64,000 nucleotides of DNA, taken from assembly GCF_036226405.1 (NCBI RefSeq), contig NZ_CP108464.1:5952001-6016000 (forward strand). Reading direction: 5' to 3'. The position numbers and the translations under genes are program-made. This stretch comes from Streptomyces sp. NBC_01260 (GTDB lineage Bacteria > Actinomycetota > Actinomycetes > Streptomycetales > Streptomycetaceae). Positions within the stretch are counted from its first letter, which is position 1, and each line of letters begins with the position of its first letter. A model generated the notes under the pieces. It saw only the letters and a program-made list of their open reading frames with translations, did no database searches and was not told where the DNA came from. Positions 26,620-34,365 of the stretch are shown one piece after another.

Positions 26620-26694
26620 GGGTGCGTAGCTCAGGGGTAGAGCGCTGCTCTTACAAAGCAGATGTCGGCGGTTCGAAACCGTCCGCGCCCACCA
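26620..26694 (+). tRNA. tRNA-Val (anticodon TAC)
   Basis: 75 bases including an encoded CCA. Acceptor stem GGGTGCG pairs with CGCGCCC (one U-G pair); the anticodon stem CTGCT/AGCAG encloses the loop CTTACAA, anticodon TAC, reading GTA. The T-arm GGCGG-TTCGAAA-CCGTC is standard, and A-CCA follows. Intact, despite being the attachment site for at least two integrated elements whose remnants follow it. Confidence 0.95.
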
Positions 26695-26698
26695 GTGC

Positions 26699-26732
26699 AA
26701 AGGCCCCCAACCGATCATGGTTGGGGGCCTTT
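26699..26732. terminator. Terminator after tRNA-Val, copy 1
   Basis: Fourteen-bp perfect stem AAAGGCCCCCAACC / GGTTGGGGGCCTTT with loop GATCAT. It serves the tRNA on one strand and the integrase remnant on the other. Confidence 0.85.
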
Positions 26733-26762
26733 GACATCCACTTCTGACATCAACGGTTGCGG

Positions 26763-26846
26763 TCACCCACGGTCGGGACGCTGCCGCTTCAGCATGCGGT
26801 CCAGGTGGCTCACGGCCTCGCGTTGAGTGTCCTGGACGACGTGGGT
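26763..26846 (-). pseudogene. C-terminal scrap of a tyrosine integrase (element I)
   Basis: Only the last 26 or so codons survive: THVVQDTQREAVSHLDRMLK and RQRPDRG before the stop. They match the end of the longer remnant at 27460. The upstream part has been replaced by the GYD-domain gene, whose stop codon lies immediately next to the junction (26849). Not functional. Confidence 0.8.
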
Positions 26847-26848
26847 CG

Positions 26849-27145
26849 TCAGCCGGCCGCCTTGGCGATGATGCGCTCCATCTCCTCTGGGCCGAAGGCC
26901 CGCAGAGTCGTGGAACGGACGCTGCCCACCCCACCGAGCTGCAGGAGTGCTGCCGTGGCAGTTTCGTCGTCGGGCGCCTCGACGATGGCCACGAGGTCGT
27001 ACGGACCGACGGTCCAGTAGATGCTCAGGAGCTTCGCCCCGAGCTTCTGTACCGCTGACCCGAAGGCCTCGGAGCGCTTTGCGGTGTCCTTGTAGTTTCG
27101 GACCCCTTGATCGGTCCAGCTCAGCAAGGTGACGTACGTCGGCAT
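26849..27145 (-). CDS. GYD domain protein
   Basis: 98 residues, MPTYVTLLSWTDQGVRNYKD with IYWTVGPYDLVAIVEAPDDE, the GYD fold (dimeric alpha/beta-barrel). Family members are small cytosolic proteins of unclear role. The start ATG has GTGAAGG upstream. It is the only intact gene inside the eroded elements, located between the first integrase scrap and the second attachment site, so it is either cargo of element I or chromosomal sequence trapped by recombination. Confidence 0.9.
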   Translation of the reverse strand: MPTYVTLLSWTDQGVRNYKDTAKRSEAFGSAVQKLGAKLLSIYWTVGPYDLVAIVEAPDDETATAALLQLGGVGSVRSTTLRAFGPEEMERIIAKAAG

Positions 27146-27376
27146 GTTCTTTCACCTTCACGAGGAGACACATTGTGAGGACAAGCCTGGACATCTGGGC
27201 CAGAACCTGCACGAGATACGCACCCGAACGAGCAATACGAGCGACCACAGGCATCGAGGGGCAGGCTGACATCAACGACAGCGGACACCGACGGTCGCCG
27301 CGGTTCTCTGCGGAGTGGATGCAGCCATACAGTCGTAGCTATCCGGGGCCGCTGATATCGCGGATCGAACTCACAA

Positions 27377-27543
27377 CGTCCGCGCCCACCAGTGCAAGGG
27401 CCCCCAACCGATCATGGTTGGGGGCCCTTGACATCCACTTCTGACATCAACGGGTGCGGTCACTCACGGTCGGGGCGCCGCCGCTTCAGCATGCGGTCCA
27501 GGTGACTCACAGCCTCGCGTTGCGTGTCCTGGACGACGTGGGT
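27377..27543. repeat. 167-bp direct repeat, copy 2, with second attachment-site relic
   Basis: Begins CGTCCGCGCCCACCAG, the 3' end of the tRNA-Val gene; the preceding bases (CGGATCGAACTCACAA) look like a mutated T-arm. It includes its own terminator hairpin (27395-27409 with 27416-27430, 15 bp) and the integrase C-terminus. This is the junction between the two tandem element remnants. Confidence 0.8.
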
Positions 27544-27831
27544 GCAGATGTTCATCGTGACCGCGATCTGACTGTGTCCGAGGATCTCCATCACGACGCG
27601 GGGAGCGACCCCGGCGGCGGTCAGCAGGGTCGCGCATCCGTGGCGGGCGTCGTGCAGCCGGATCACGCGAAGCCCGGCGGTCTTGGCTACACGGGTGAAC
27701 GAGCGGTACAGGTTGCGCGGCTCGATCGGCCGACCGGTGCGGGTGGTGAAGACGTAGCCGGTCTCTTCCCACTGATCATCGGCGGCTTTTCCGGCGAAGC
27801 CTATGAACGGTCTTGGCACAGGAAGCAGCAA
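27460..27831 (-). pseudogene. 5'-truncated tyrosine recombinase/integrase (element II)
   Basis: About 110 residues of the catalytic domain remain (an intact enzyme has about 370-450). Recognisable: TGYVFTTRTGRPIEPRNLYR, box II LHDARHGCATLL (Arg) and LGHSQIAVTM (His). The active-site Tyr expected in the T-M-N-x-Y-T-H-V motif is Cys here (MNICTHV; TGC in place of TAC), so the remnant is dead twice over. The first 20 or so codons of the open frame (MLLPVPRPFIGF) are not integrase-like and mark the truncation. Stop 83 bases from the attachment-site relic, the usual place for a site-specific integrase beside its tRNA. Confidence 0.88.
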
Positions 27832-28051
27832 CCTACTCAGCTGCCCCGACCAGGCCGCTGCACGCCAGCAAGATCGTGTTACGAGTTCTTGGGCCGGTAC
27901 GGCCGTCGCTGACTTCCCCGGTTGGAGCTACGGACCCGAAGGTCTCTGACATCCCCAGCTGACATCAACGACGCCGGACGGTAGCGCACACGGGCATCTC
28001 TGTCTGACTGTCGCGGCGAGGGCAAGGAGGAGTGGGACGGGTTCTGATCGA
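27832..28051. other. Right part of element II remnant
   Basis: 220 bases without a gene. Holds the third TGACATC pair (27946/27959). Short frames here are fragments only. Confidence 0.5.
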
Positions 28052-28094
28052 CTTACAAAGCAGATGTCGGCGGTTCGAAACTGTCCGCGCCCAC
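28052..28094 (+). repeat. Distal attachment site: 43-bp tRNA-Val 3' fragment
   Basis: Matches tRNA-Val bases 26650-26692 with one mismatch (T for C at 28082), from the anticodon loop to the CC of the CCA end. It lacks the 5' half and cannot make a tRNA. This is the attR of the tandem insertion, about 1.4 kb from the intact gene. Confidence 0.9.
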
Positions 28095-28123
28095 AGTAGG
28101 AAACCGCAGGTGAGAGCCTGATT

Positions 28124-28155
28124 CGGCCCCCTGGTCCACACAGACCGGGGGGCCG
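28124..28155. terminator. Terminator beyond attR (probably the original tRNA-Val terminator)
   Basis: Twelve-bp stem CGGCCCCCTGGT / ACCGGGGGGCCG with one G-U pair, then TTT. It lies 30 bases after the tRNA fragment, where the pre-insertion chromosome should resume. Beyond it GATGCCACAT is present twice in tandem (28166-28188). Confidence 0.65.
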
Positions 28156-28404
28156 TTTCCATGATCGATGCCACATGGATGCCACATCCCCACGAAATCA
28201 CGCTCTCTCATCACTCGATAGAGGGACCGGAAACGTGGCCGGTACACCGTAGAGTGCGGCGCATGGGAGGGGCAGGTGTGTCTCCCCGCGCGCGCCTGAC
28301 ACGCGCCTCCCGTATTCTGCGGCGCCTTGGCGGGGAGGCTCTACCCGCAGAAGCGTGACCCCCGCCGTGAGACTCGGCTGGGGTCTTCTGCCGCCCAACG
28401 TAAA

Positions 28405-28434
28405 CCGCCCCGCACCTGTTCGGGTGCGGGGCGG
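28405..28434. terminator. Strong hairpin upstream of the HTH gene
   Basis: Perfect 12-bp stem CCGCCCCGCACC / GGTGCGGGGCGG with a 6-base loop. No intact gene lies before it; it probably ended a gene lost from this region. The rest of 28156-28533 shows no gene. Confidence 0.65.
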
Positions 28435-28533
28435 GGCGCCTTGACCGAGTCATGGTGCCATCCGGCGCAATCTGGCGAACGCCGATGCGCAGGTAGTGAC
28501 CGGGCAGAGCCCGAAACAGCCATGATCAAATAT

Positions 28534-28549
28534 GTACCATCGATGGTAC
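28534..28549. promoter_or_regulatory. 16-bp perfect palindrome upstream of the HTH gene
   Basis: GTACCATCGATGGTAC, 36 bases before the HTH start, in an AT-rich flank (TCAAATAT / TGACATAG) that could be the promoter. The position fits an operator for autoregulation by the adjacent HTH protein. Confidence 0.65.
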
Positions 28550-28584
28550 TGACATAGATCACGGCGGACCAGAGCGTTAACGGG

Positions 28585-28992
28585 GTGCCGACTGATCCCC
28601 TACCCGACTGGGTACCCGCCCGCCGCCGCCGGGCCATCGGGGACCGCGTCCGGGCCGCCCGCGTTGCCGCAGGCCTCACCCAAGAGGAAGTGGCTGGCCG
28701 GTGCGGGCTCGACCGGAAGACCGTGAATCGCCTGGAGCAGGGCCACACCTCTCCGCTCCTCGATCACCTGCTCCTCATCGCCGACGCGATCGGCGTGGAC
28801 CTCACCGTCCTCGTTCGGCAGCGAGCCCCGACCGCGCGAGAGGTCGGGGCTCTGGTCATCTACCGTCAGGCGTGGGCGCGGACGAGCAGGGTGCCGATTT
28901 TTCTCGGCCCGGGCGGCGCGGGCAGGACTCGGGCGGCTGCCACAGTGAAGCCGTGCTCGGTGAGGAGCGCCTCCCACCGTTCGGGTTCGTAG
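28585..28992 (+). CDS. Small XRE-type HTH protein, readthrough C-terminus
   Basis: GTG start. Residues about 10-75 form an XRE helix-turn-helix: AIGDRVRAARVAAGLTQEEV, AGRCGLDRKTVNRLEQGHTS, LLLIADAIGVDLTVLV. Homologues of this class usually stop soon after that point. Here the frame continues for about 50 more low-quality residues and overlaps the converging methyltransferase gene by 127 bases, so the C-terminus is probably an accident of a rearranged 3' end. DNA-binding regulator, likely autoregulatory through the palindrome upstream. Confidence 0.7.
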   Translation: MPTDPLPDWVPARRRRAIGDRVRAARVAAGLTQEEVAGRCGLDRKTVNRLEQGHTSPLLDHLLLIADAIGVDLTVLVRQRAPTAREVGALVIYRQAWARTSRVPIFLGPGGAGRTRAAATVKPCSVRSASHRSGS

Positions 28993-29528
28993 TCCCAGCG
29001 CTTGACGACGAGCGGGTCCTCATCCTCGGACCGGTTGATGTACGAGGCCTGGCATCCGTAGCAGCCCTCGATCGGTGGCCGGTGCGAGAAGGCCAGCACA
29101 CCACCCGGACGGAGCCGCTGGCGGATGGCGGGCAAGAGGACGGCCGGGTCGGTGAACCACGCCGCACCGAAGACGGAGAACACGGCGTCGAAGTGCTCGC
29201 CGCTCTCTGCGAGGAACCGGGTGGCCTCGGTGTGGTGGAGGACCATGCCGGTGTCGGACCAGCGGGCTTCGGCGGCCTTGAGCTGCGCGAGCGAGACGTC
29301 GACGCCGACTGCGCGGGCGCCGAGAGCGGTGATGTGGGCGAGGTTTCCACCCTTGCCGCAGCCCAGGTCCAGAACGGATGCGCCCGGGTCCACGCCCAGC
29401 AGTTCGGCGCCGGGGCCGTGGTCGGCGTACTGGGTCCAGTTGAACCAGGTGGACTCGCCTGCCGCGTTCGTGTGCCGGCGCTCCGGCTTCTGCTTCGAGT
29501 AGGTGTCCCAGGCCTGGGTCTCGGTCAT
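28866..29528 (-). CDS. Class I SAM-dependent methyltransferase
   Basis: 220 residues. Motif I ASVLDLGCGKGGNLAHITAL, acidic loop AVGVDVSLAQLKAAEARW, motif IV region FDAVFSVFGAAWFTDPAVLL and LRPGGVLAFSHRPP. Cys residues in GCYGCQASY. Substrate unknown. It lies 67 bases downstream of the GRDP-like gene on the same strand, and the two look like an operon driven from the palindromic promoter at about 30105. The pairing suggests the methyltransferase acts on, or with, that protein. Confidence 0.88.
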   Translation of the reverse strand: MTETQAWDTYSKQKPERRHTNAAGESTWFNWTQYADHGPGAELLGVDPGASVLDLGCGKGGNLAHITALGARAVGVDVSLAQLKAAEARWSDTGMVLHHTEATRFLAESGEHFDAVFSVFGAAWFTDPAVLLPAIRQRLRPGGVLAFSHRPPIEGCYGCQASYINRSEDEDPLVVKRWDYEPERWEALLTEHGFTVAAARVLPAPPGPRKIGTLLVRAHA

Positions 29529-29595
29529 GCTGCTCCGTTCATGGGCCGACCGCCCGGGGGGATGTGCCCAGGCGGTTGGCTTCGGGGTGAGCTGA

Positions 29596-30081
29596 CTACC
29601 TCTTCTTCTTGCCGCCGTTCGGGCTGTCGGTGCAACCCGCGTGGCACTGGGAGCACTCGCCCATCTTGGCGGCTTCGGGCCACAGATCGGGCTCGATTCG
29701 GAATCCCGCCGCGGTCAACGCGTCGAGGTTGCGCCTGCGCTCGGCTGCGGCACCACCTTTGGCGTCTTCGCCGTCGGGTGTCGGGACGTGATGGATGAAG
29801 CGTCCGGCGATCCGTTCGCAGAACGCGGCGTAGTCGACGGTGTGAAGGATCCACGTGTGCCAGCCGACGTCCACCGGCTTGCTCGGCGAGAGCTTCAGGC
29901 CGGGGCGCTGGGCGCCGGTGGCGAGGAACGCGGCGGTCTGCGCGACGATACGGCGGGCGGTGGTGGTGGTGTGCTCGGGGTGGTCCTTGACGATGCGGGC
30001 GGCAAGCCGCTCCATCATCTCGGGCTCGACGAGCGTGACAGGGTCAGTGGTGCCCACGGGACGCTCTAACGCGATGGTCAT
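29596..30081 (-). CDS. GRDP-like (glycine-rich-domain type) protein with Cys-rich tail
   Basis: 161 residues. The central block VDVGWHTWILHTVDYAAFCE followed by RIAGRFIHHVP resembles the conserved W-H-T-x-x-L-H-x-x-x-Y core of GRDP-like proteins, a putative metal or ligand site with several His. The C-terminus is a separate small Cys/His cluster, ECSQCHAGCTDSPNGGKKKR. I recall this tail being conserved in Streptomyces proteins, often next to methyltransferases. The start ATG has AGGAGG upstream. Possible roles: a metal-binding carrier protein, or a precursor carrying a modified Cys-rich peptide. Neither is proven. Confidence 0.7.
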   Translation of the reverse strand: MTIALERPVGTTDPVTLVEPEMMERLAARIVKDHPEHTTTTARRIVAQTAAFLATGAQRPGLKLSPSKPVDVGWHTWILHTVDYAAFCERIAGRFIHHVPTPDGEDAKGGAAAERRRNLDALTAAGFRIEPDLWPEAAKMGECSQCHAGCTDSPNGGKKKR

Positions 30082-30104
30082 GTGCTTCCTCCTGTAGTGG
30101 ACTT

Positions 30105-30120
30105 GCCCTCACGTGAGGGC
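30105..30120. promoter_or_regulatory. 16-bp perfect palindrome upstream of the GRDP-like operon
   Basis: GCCCTCACGTGAGGGC, 24 bases before the GRDP-like start. The size and symmetry fit a dimeric regulator's operator. Confidence 0.6.
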
Positions 30121-30128
30121 GGGCCCGC

Positions 30129-30159
30129 CCGTGCCGGGTGGCGGGGTGCACCGGCACGG
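30129..30159. terminator. Hairpin between GRDP-like promoter and the frameshifted gene
   Basis: Nine-bp perfect stem CCGTGCCGG / CCGGCACGG, extendable to about 14 bp with one mismatch. It lies downstream of the minus-strand pseudogene. Confidence 0.55.
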
Positions 30160-30205
30160 ACGGGAGTTGTGGGGTGATCAGGGCCAGGCCCCCTGATTCA
30201 GTGCG

Positions 30206-30474
30206 TCATTGCCGTGCCTGGCGCCAGGCATGGCCGAGCCGTACGACTGTCGTGCATGCCGCCCCGGCCCGGCACGCGGCGCAGGCGAGGGTGTGGCCGA
30301 GCCATGCTCGGTAGGCATGGTCCTGGGCGGGGCGGACGGCGGCCGTCACGATGCGCTCCAAGTGGTGCAGCGGGGGCATGCGCAGGGCGGCAGTTCGAAC
30401 GTTGTCTCCGGCTGCTCCAGGGGGACAACTTCGGCCTCCCGCACCAGCCTGGTGGTGGTCCCGGAGCGGTCCAC
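30206..30474 (-). pseudogene. Frameshifted small Cys-rich hypothetical gene
   Basis: The 5' part in one frame reads MDRSGTTTRLVREAEVVPLE then TTFELPPCACPRCTTW and stops; the next frame continues LERIVTAAVRPAQDHAYRAW, LGHTLACAACRAGAACTTVV, RLGHAWRQARQ to a stop. I recall Streptomyces proteins joining these two parts (CPxC then LERIVTA and AHTLxCAACR). A shift of one or two bases near 30355 explains the break. The paired CxxC motifs suggest a zinc-binding protein. It begins at the very point where the neighbouring DUF5753 gene has lost its 5' half. Confidence 0.65.
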
Positions 30475-30481
30475 CTCGTAA

Positions 30482-31117
30482 GCCGGGGATCTGATCGCGC
30501 AGTCCCTGCACGCTGAGTCGATGTACAGCGAGTGGCGCCACCGGACACGCAACGGGCTGAAGCAGCTGCAGGACAGCGCGGTCAGCTTCTTCCGGCAGAC
30601 CGAGCTGTTCCGGGTGTATTCCTCCTCGCTCATTCCCGGCCTGCTGCAGACCGAGGGCTACGCTGCCGCCGTGCTGGGTATGAGCGCCCGGTTCCGTGAG
30701 CTCCCTGTCGACGACAGCGCGGCCGCGGCCCGGGCCCGGGTGGAGCGCTCGCAGATCGTCCACGAACGCGGGCACCGCTTCGTCCTCCTCGTCGAGGAAG
30801 CGGTGCTGTACTACCGGATCGGCGACGCCGAGGCGATGGCTGCTCAGCTCGGGTACCTGCTGACGGCGGGCGCCTTGCCGGCGGTCTCGCTCGGCATCAT
30901 CCCGAGCACCGCGCTGCGGGGGCAGTGGCCTCGCGAGACGTTTCACGTATACGACCACTCCCTTGTATCTGTGGAACTCGTCTCCGCGCAGGTGCGGATC
31001 ACCCAGCCCAGTGAGATCGGGCTGTACCTGAAGGCGTTCGAGCAGATGCGCCGCACGGCCGTGTACGGGGGTGACGCCCGCGCCCTGGTCGTGAAGGCGA
31101 TCGAAGCGCTCAGCTGA
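30482..31117 (+). pseudogene. DUF5753 (Scr1-type) regulator lacking its HTH half
   Basis: About 200 residues of the C-terminal DUF5753 domain remain: LFRVYSSSLIPGLLQTEGYA, RVERSQIVHERGHRFVLLVE, EAVLYYRIG, RETFHVYDHSLVSVELVSAQ. Intact family members begin with an XRE helix-turn-helix of about 80 residues. Here the same frame is closed by a TAA at 30479 just before GDLIAQSLHAESMYSEWRHR, so the DNA-binding half is gone. An ATG at 30521 could still make the ligand-like domain alone. It probably formed at a rearrangement joint with the opposite-strand gene. Confidence 0.75.
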
Positions 31118-32841: not shown

Positions 32842-33426
32842 CAACGTGCGCCCGAAGTGGGATATGCGGTCAGACATGGCGATGCCCCCGCCTCGACCGA
32901 ATTGCGTTGGAGGCTCTGGCATGCCCGTGTCCAGGTCGGCCGCCCCTTCCTCGCCGAGGTGACCGCCAAGAAATGAGCAGGTCATTCTTCCGTCTCGGCA
33001 TGCCAGTTGACAGTGCAACGCCCTGGCCGGTCCTCCACCACGCTGGACTGCGGTGATGTGGTGGTGCCCCTTTTGGGAGGAGGTGGGGGAGCGGGGTCAG
33101 TTGCATGCCGCATGGACTTGGCGCCTCGCCACAGAACGAGGGTGCCGACGCCTCAGACCGTGGCCACCCCGCCGATGGGTGACAGGGCGTAGAAGACCGC
33201 CGGGGTACCGCCGTCGAGGACGGCACATGACGGCGCCCGCCGGTCTGGGTGAGGGGCAGGTAGGCGACGGCCGGGCTGTGAAGCAACTGCGTTCAGCCGC
33301 CCCGCCCACCCCGAGGCAGGCACGAAACCGCGTTGGACTGGATAGATGACCGGTGTAGGGCTGTTGCGAAGGTGCTGGTCACGATCCTGGGAGCGGCGGA
33401 ACGAGCTGCTGCTAGCGTCCGGATTC
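32842..33426. other. Gene-poor interval with decayed coding traces
   Basis: 585 bases. A plus frame from 32844 ends at 32975 after PEVGYAVRHGDAPASTELRW and HARVQVGRPFLAEVTAKK; it looks like the end of a lost gene. The remainder shows no ribosome site or conserved frame on either strand. Confidence 0.4.
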
Positions 33427-33819
33427 ATGAACGACAGCGTGTACGTGGGCAATGCGGGCGAGGGCGCCGCACTGGACCGGGGATGGTTGCTCGGGCACTT
33501 CAAGGACGCCGCAGATCCTCGCCACAGCGAGGCTGTAGAGATCAAATGGGGCGTTCACCCGCGTGGTGACCAGCGAGTGCAGTGGGTGAGGGGCGAGGAA
33601 CGAACAGCTCTCCTGGTACTCATCAGCGGCCGCTTCCACGTCCAACTTCCGCGCCGAAGTGTGCTTTTGGCGCGGCAGGGCGATTACGTCGTCTGGGGTC
33701 ATGGAGTCGACCACTCTTGGTTCGCGGAAGAAGAGTCGGTAGTGCTGACGGTTCGGTGGCCATCCGTACCCGGCTACGCAGTGACACCAGCGGAAGGCAG
33801 TGCGCGGGTGTGGCCCTGA
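33427..33819 (+). CDS. Small cupin-like beta-barrel protein
   Basis: 130 residues from the ATG of MNDSVYVGNAGEGAALDRGW; the frame is open upstream. The pattern VEIKWGVHPRGDQRVQWVRG, LVLISGRFHVQLPRRSVLLA, RQGDYVVWGHGVDHSWFAEE is a single-domain cupin: conserved Gly turns, with W-G-H-G-V-D-H supplying a His pair for a metal. Likely binds a small ligand or metal in the cytosol. No partner gene is evident. Confidence 0.65.
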   Translation: MNDSVYVGNAGEGAALDRGWLLGHFKDAADPRHSEAVEIKWGVHPRGDQRVQWVRGEERTALLVLISGRFHVQLPRRSVLLARQGDYVVWGHGVDHSWFAEEESVVLTVRWPSVPGYAVTPAEGSARVWP

Positions 33820-33900
33820 CCGTGAAGGTGCAGGCTCCGCCATTCTTGACCAGAGCCGCACGTGTGCCAGGTACGAGCGGGAATCTGCGGTCGAAGATTG

Positions 33901-34365
33901 TCAGGGGCGGGCCAGTGAAGACCGCATGGCCGCCATGAGCTTCTGGCGGGCCTCGCGGAAGGCGCGCCGTACCTGTGCGCACTCAGGATCGTCACGCAGA
34001 TGTCCGGCGACCACCGTGTCCCGGTAGAGGAGCAACTGGTAGGCGGCGTCCCTGGCGCACTGGGCCACTTCCGGTGACGCCAGTAGCTCCAGTTGGTACT
34101 GCTTCGAGTGCACGCCGTGGCTCAGGATGCCGGCGCGGGCGAGTTCGGTCCGTTCATCCACTGGTAGATGTCCCGATCGGCTGGCGTCGCTTATGGCGTC
34201 GCGCGCCTCGGTCAGGGCCTCCAGGAACTGGGCAGACACCGTGCGCAGGGTTTCTCTGTCGCGCTCGCCTCTGTCCCGTCGCCAACGCACTCGGTCTGTG
34301 GCGAGCGTGCTGCCCACCCCGATGACCGCACCCATCACTGTGGCAACCAACGCTGTCCATTCCAT
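33901..34365 (-). CDS. Membrane-anchored protein of unknown function
   Basis: 154 residues from the ATG of MEWTALVATVMGAVIGVGST, one N-terminal transmembrane helix followed by a basic RVRWRRDRGERDRE stop-transfer and a helical cytosolic domain (LRTVSAQFLEALTEARDAIS; VAQCARDAAYQLLLYRD; VRRAFREARQKLMAAMRS). This is a common small orphan type in Streptomyces islands. An upstream extension to 34509 lacks a ribosome site. Confidence 0.65.
   Translation of the reverse strand: MEWTALVATVMGAVIGVGSTLATDRVRWRRDRGERDRETLRTVSAQFLEALTEARDAISDASRSGHLPVDERTELARAGILSHGVHSKQYQLELLASPEVAQCARDAAYQLLLYRDTVVAGHLRDDPECAQVRRAFREARQKLMAAMRSSLARP

Follow-up and report, generated by a model that had tools for sequence, protein, structure and literature searches.

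The window, i.e., the whole 64-kb stretch of DNA that was analysed, contains one tRNA gene, an intact tRNA-Val(TAC) that ARAGORN places at 26620-26694 on the plus strand and that served as the integration site for the DNA described here. Two remnants of actinomycete integrative and conjugative elements (AICEs), of approximately 0.7 kb each, lie in series downstream of this gene, in the interval 26620-28094. A first-pass annotation of this DNA had already claimed an intact tRNA-Val(TAC) at the start of this interval, and the ARAGORN prediction agrees with that claim.

Attachment sites and ends of the two units

The att1 core comprises 43 nt (26650-26692, plus strand) and runs from the anticodon loop, CTTACAA, which provides its first seven bases, to the tRNA 3' end. 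At the far side of the interval, the distal core att3 (28052-28094, plus strand) is identical to att1 at 42/43 positions, in agreement with the earlier description of a third site as a 43-base tRNA fragment with one mismatch; the interval is thus bounded by direct repeats that reproduce the tRNA 3' end, as in an AICE. Between these two cores lies att2 (27370-27389, plus strand), a distal-type att core that consists of CTCACAA followed by CGTCCGCGCCCAC, i.e., the core minus 23 nt, with the internal deletion placed directly after the anticodon-loop heptamer. While the first-pass annotation was right that the second site is partial, its start needs to be moved from 27377 to 27370 to take in CTCACAA, and an arm repeat lies 104 nt to the left. 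We read att2 as a distal-type att with a deletion because its left flank, GCGGATCGAA, leads into CTCACAA, the 23-nt gap, and CGTCCGCGCCCAC, with the arm at -104. That att2 is a simple tRNA 3' fragment was considered and ruled out, as its left side is distal-end sequence; since 23 nt are missing, the origin of att2 as a recombination product rests on the left flank and the arm spacing. Strand exchange probably takes place at the anticodon-loop heptamer. The possibility, raised in the first-pass annotation, that the 43-nt fragment is a common dispersed repeat was also ruled out; the genome that contains the window carries two core copies at up to 3 mismatches, both of which are located in the interval 26620-28094.

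The two units share a common architecture. The proximal end consists of an att core, a hairpin, arm-type repeats, and an integrase 3' stub, while an arm repeat and an att core make up the distal end; the two proximal ends contain a direct repeat of 167 nt (26680-26846 and 27377-27543; 95% identical). In element 1, the hairpin follows just after the tRNA (26698-26733, plus strand; -33.8 kcal/mol, z -7.2, 0/200 shuffles as good) and is likely a terminator supplied by the element; it is followed by the arm-type repeats TTGACATCCACT and CTGACATCAACG (26731-26755, plus strand), the second of which begins 51 nt past the core. Element 2 begins with a hairpin at 27395-27430 (plus strand; -36.2 kcal/mol, z -6.2) and arm repeats at 27428-27452 (plus strand). 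The distal arm repeat of element 1 (27266-27277, plus strand), 104 nt before the att2 core, has a counterpart in the genome G193, and the distal end of element 2 (27889-28051, plus strand; arm repeats at 27946-27957 and 27959-27970) matches that of a full-length relative, L029 (77% over 27892-28100). When the 12-mer CTGACATCAACG was searched for on both strands with at most one mismatch, four copies were found in the window, each of them an exact match within the interval; shuffled controls had a mean of 0.20 copies and 0/100 reached four. These repeats may represent integrase arm sites.

A reading of cores with up to 9 mismatches, performed on loci L029-L127 and the window, yielded 73 cores and indicates the arm spacing typical of the family. 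The arm repeat was found at +50/51 in 41 of the 48 integrase-bearing cores and was absent there in the other 7; an arm lies no more than 300 nt upstream of 15 of the 73 cores, at -93 to -95 in 11 of them, usually with a second arm 13 nt further out, and at distances of 104, 106, 208, and 257 nt in the remaining four. The att3 of the window, with an arm at -93, is one of the 11 and fits the family spacing, as does att2 when its start is taken as 27370; the att2 arm is located at 104 nt as compared to the common 95, but L050 and L120 likewise show distances of 104 and 106. Relatives for which both ends were fetched (e.g., L029, L036, and L043) terminate at their far end in the same core, with arms at -95 and -108.

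Integrase stubs, GYD cargo, and the insertion sequence end

Two integrase C-termini of unequal length had been claimed for the interval, and both were recovered. Remnant 1 retains approximately 27 codons and the stop codon of the integrase gene (26763-26846, minus strand) and starts just past the catalytic-tyrosine codon; 26766-26852 is 90% identical to residues 357-385 of the L029 integrase, in which the catalytic tyrosine is residue 358. The stub is joined, at approximately 26844-26847, to an intact gene for a GYD-domain protein of 98 aa (26849-27145, minus strand; PF08734, 1.3e-31), which represents the cargo of element 1. As other DNA precedes the GYD gene at the fusion point in eight other loci (L160, L162-L166, L104, and L126), the joint between stub and GYD gene is derived. 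The distal end of element 1, with the GYD gene and CGCGGATCGAACTC, has a counterpart in G193, where the GYD gene leads into a distal end that the window shares (88% over 26844-27372), with unrelated DNA beyond it. GYD genes were also seen in varied surroundings in several Streptomyces (L160, L162-L166, L126, and L104), with some common downstream sequence as judged by eye, and adjoin arm-type repeats in L160, L162, and L163. The GYD gene may be a common cargo of this AICE family.

The remnant 2 stub is longer (approximately 107 aa; 27460-27783, minus strand), with a PF00589 match over 27460-27831 on the minus strand (2.5e-15), but it carries a Cys (NICTH) at the position of the catalytic tyrosine; among 83 matching stretches from 79 loci, this position is Tyr in 82 and a stop in one (L104). 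The stub is followed, at the deletion joint, by approximately 105 bp (27784-27888) of the right end of an IS5-family insertion sequence, and a reading of this segment as element or gene sequence was accordingly ruled out. A complete copy of the insertion sequence is found elsewhere in the same genome (G000:C1, approximately 1687864-1689318, equivalent to L175:1864-3318; 95% identity over 27790-27888); it measures approximately 1.45 kb and encodes a 267-aa IS5 transposase (NF033580, 6e-66). This copy also holds a 156-aa open frame without a Pfam match. Inverted end motifs spaced approximately 1.2-1.55 kb apart were found in 6 of the 12 loci L168-L179, five of these loci show one copy, and L173 has no copy of the end motif within 3 mismatches. 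When 27784-27930 was used as a query, part of it was matched in 39 of 392 genus genomes, mostly over some 20-50 nt only. Element 2 matches several relatives about equally well (88-90%), and no single clear parent emerged. The order of tRNA, integrase, cargo, and att proposed in the first-pass annotation is thus upheld, with the refinement that the cargo is an intact GYD gene and that unit 2 contains the IS5-family end.

Judged by their sequence, both integrases are dead. The AICE hallmark of a tyrosine integrase beside an att site formed by a tRNA 3' end is present in the form of stubs only (at att1 and att2), and the open frames scanned in 26695-28094 gave GYD and integrase matches only, with no replication initiator or FtsK/TraB-type gene; we therefore refer to remnants rather than to an AICE. 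No close full-length integrase homologue was identified among 13 matches in the same genome, two of which are the stubs themselves; with regard to a resident integrase that could mobilise the units, the next-best match showed 36% identity over 347 residues. Neither remnant is able to move by itself. The outer att sites are nearly intact (att1 with its proximal arms, att3 with its distal arms), so that excision of the 1.4-kb att1-att3 composite by a cognate element newly arrived at the site would in principle be possible. This composite, with attL and attR and with no predicted functional integrase or transfer genes, has the sequence layout of a CIME. CIMEs of the ICESt1/ICESt3 type are attL/attR-flanked, cis-mobilisable elements that have kept their ends and lost their recombination and transfer genes, and an element that stacks beside them could carry them along; the locus described here differs in that the internal att is damaged.

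Full, decayed, and element-free versions of the site and the proposed history

A scan of genome contigs with the integrase piece identified 175 relatives, the best 80 of which were kept and represent 79 loci. These loci are associated with tRNA-Val(TAC) in 33 cases and with tRNA-Arg(CCT) or tRNA-Thr(TGT) in 36, while 10 showed no tRNA. By a coverage rule, the integrase is essentially full-length in 62/79 loci, including 29/33 at tRNA-Val(TAC); the 17 loci that fall below this rule may do so in some cases through contig ends or frameshifts. In L029 (apparently G077), a 10-kb unit between two att cores encodes RepSA (5.2e-246), an FtsK/SpoIIIE-family protein (7.6e-30; its match to the plasmid TraB model is below that model's cutoff), and a 385-aa integrase as well as DUF2637, NERD, and GntR proteins. 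With its int, rep, and tra genes enclosed by att sites, this unit follows the AICE plan as described in PMC3218068 and PMC9513070. A middle stage of decay is represented by L036 (apparently G337; L036:4216-10443), where a 6.1-kb element between two cores retains 192 integrase residues as well as GmrSD, NERD, NUDIX, and HNH genes and ends at the flank seen in the window (91% to 28051-28188). The nuclease genes of the L036 element are those of the GmrSD type, NERD, and HNH, and the element may represent a defence island retained between its att sites. Another decay product was seen beside a tRNA-Val gene at L104:9278-10240, where an open frame joins part of RepSA to part of an integrase.

Element-free versions of the site were found as well. 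DNA similar to the window from 28052 onwards directly follows the tRNA in G010, G034, G036, and G368, although this likeness runs only approximately 20 nt past the core in G036. The comparison at tRNA-Val that the first-pass annotation had suggested hence yielded both empty sites and full-length integrases. Consistent with these sites, 28095-28165 (plus strand), which carries a hairpin of its own, represents the DNA that followed the tRNA before integration. Another element was considered for the DNA after 28095; as this DNA directly follows the tRNA in other genomes, its first part, at the least, belongs to the host. Pieces of 28057-30885 also recur in G019 (L124:12794-16001; 81% for 28248-28477 and 83% for 30488-30885), approximately 12 kb downstream of a tRNA-Arg(CCT) element, and part of the flank after att3 may thus be island DNA.

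Stacking at this site is not confined to the window. At up to 3 mismatches, the core was found in 203 of the 392 genus genomes, with at least two copies in 67 and at least three in 17, although the copies of one genome may sit on different contigs and, for some of the 189 genomes without a match, a tRNA core with more than 3 differing bases is surely the reason. Other tandem arrays at tRNA-Val, with complete cores, were found in relatives, and short neighbouring units include 0.92 and 1.17 kb stacked in G143 (another species), 1.8 kb in G077, and 2.3 kb in G019. In G190 (L203:270-320), a genome of the same species as the window that is 84% complete, a single contig that starts before the tRNA keeps approximately 90 bp of the proximal end of the element, followed after approximately 47 unassigned nt by sequence 98% identical to 33423-34005, which makes the locus approximately 6.6 kb shorter than in the window. 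This arrangement fits further erosion, although it does not show the ancestral state.

The element-free sites, full-length relatives, and tandem arrays bear out the earlier proposal that at least two related elements integrated in series and were deleted to approximately 0.7 kb with their ends kept, and we are confident that the locus reflects accretion and subsequent decay of two AICEs at tRNA-Val(TAC). Under this history, element 2, a RepSA/FtsK-type/tyrosine-integrase AICE, would have integrated first, into the 3' half of the tRNA-Val(TAC) gene via the 43-nt core, and would have re-created the tRNA; element 1, a close relative with a GYD gene near its distal end, would later have integrated at the rebuilt tRNA, which would place it between the tRNA and element 2. 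Each element would then have lost its interior to deletion. In element 1, this loss would have brought the 3' end of the integrase gene up against the GYD gene, while in element 2 an IS5-family copy would have inserted near the distal end, followed by a deletion from inside this copy into the integrase that removed the remainder; the att core common to both units presumably lost its 23 nt. No strain with both full-length ancestral elements in the proposed order was found, and we thus infer the order of insertion and the ancestral sizes.

We regard it as highly improbable that the locus instead derives from a single element, with the second proximal end being a local duplication of approximately 170 bp caused by unequal exchange. 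While such a duplication would account for the 95% identity of the two proximal ends over 167 nt and for the incomplete core of att2, what lies to the left of att2 is a distal end (arm at -104 and CGGATCGAACTCACAA) and the same GYD-to-distal-end sequence is found in G193; moreover, the distal ends of the two units differ, and tandem units in relatives have complete cores at tRNA-Val. The two units are hence best described as distinct relatives, which were reduced in different ways (GYD fusion versus an IS-associated deletion).

Published work already covers AICEs that stack and decay at a single site. In PMC9513070, AICEs are described as having accreted at a tRNA-Arg gene, where an old remnant is also present, and one AICE family is placed in a tRNA-Val gene, with repeats of 46 nt. 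The paper further describes decayed AICEs that consist of a partial integrase, cargo, and two direct repeats, for which later cis-mobilisation was suggested; by its own account, the in silico search of that study could not detect such decayed remains. The likeness extends to a partial integrase and cargo between repeats, to empty, intact, and decayed versions of a site, and to accretion at a tRNA; as far as the descriptions in that paper go, the differences are that the window has two stacked units of approximately 0.7 kb at tRNA-Val, with an insertion sequence end at one joint, whereas the decayed example sits in a glycosyltransferase gene. Integration in series at one tRNA is also described in PMC3218068 for the tandem pairs Sav3708/Sav3728 (tRNA-Arg) and Fean5518/Fean5534 (tRNA-Lys); these pairs are presented there as AICEs, and the Frankia pair Fean5518/Fean5534 excises singly and together, whereas both integrases in the window are truncated stubs. 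Details added by the locus described here are the 23-nt deletion in att2, the insertion sequence end at a joint, the Cys in place of the catalytic tyrosine, and the fusion that also occurs in G089. The locus represents a readable fossil record of tRNA-linked islands that grow by stacking, shrink by internal deletion, and keep their recombination ends, and the element-free, full, decayed, stacked, and (in the same species) over-eroded versions provide a compact set for measuring turnover at one tRNA.

The stub-GYD fusion in a second species

Among the matches listed for the 392 genus genomes, the joint between integrase stub and GYD gene is spanned only in the genome of the window and in G089, which belongs to another species; weak matches in G024 and G351 pass the fusion point by approximately 20 nt. 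G089 carries the exact fusion 27 kb downstream of its tRNA-Val, with att cores at +2.3 and +15.4 kb as well as distal-type repeats in between. The two cores (L201/L202, 5967500-6004000) have 2 and 0 mismatches and are preceded by other distal-end sequence that ends in GGCGCCAGG. The mapping of these 27 kb covered only att cores, repeats, and tRNAs; it also showed a tRNA-Trp gene, so the stretch need not be all element DNA. This arrangement raises the possibility, for which we see a little over one chance in three, that the fused, integrase-less remnant crossed species as a passenger in cis, beside a stacked complete element and excised at the outer att sites. In G089, the fusion does lie behind two att cores and other element-end repeats, and a tree built from 11 GYD pieces pairs that of the window with that of G089 as sisters (95/93 support). 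At 4-fold sites, the two GYD genes agree at 52/58 positions as compared to 1977/2890 in host genes (p ~1e-4), where the host control consisted of 15 upstream genes (15 of 16 predicted open frames were matched; range 52-86%). The part that spans att, hairpin, and stub agrees at 113/132 positions (p ~5e-6 against the host 4-fold sites).

The result of this test varies, however, with the control used. Compared to seven hand-picked intergenic host stretches taken together (78.6%), the excess in the att-hairpin-stub part is weak (p 0.027); a p of 2e-5 is obtained only after one 778-bp control with a 234-codon open frame is dropped, which was decided after the values had been seen, and the integrase stub alone (72/87) does not differ significantly (p 0.21). 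Further evidence against a passenger comes from G089 itself, where DNA similar to the proximal end of element 2 (72% to 27429-27510) comes directly after the GYD unit, so that one old stack may have been inherited by both species; in addition, the att core in G089 is eroded, the GYD piece of the window is as close to G350, which is without the fusion, as to G089, and the genome of the window is without a close full-length integrase. The sequences hence provide a hint, rather than proof, that the fused remnant may have moved between species after loss of its integrase. We advance even more tentatively the broader proposal that a 0.6-0.7-kb integrase-less GYD remnant travelled between Streptomyces species, in which dead remnants would be minimal carriers mobilised in trans or in cis and the tRNA-Val stack would be their reservoir. 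If a fused remnant did cross species, very small integrase-less units would have to be counted as mobile DNA.

That selection kept the remnant, either because its hairpin terminates tRNA-Val transcription or because the GYD protein is useful, or both, seems unlikely. The strong hairpin after the tRNA is kept even in G190, where nearly all else is gone, and the GYD gene is intact, with 96% protein identity between the window and G089; G190, on the other hand, has no GYD gene at its tRNA-Val locus, the original flank has a hairpin of its own (28095-28165), and element-free strains manage without that of the element.
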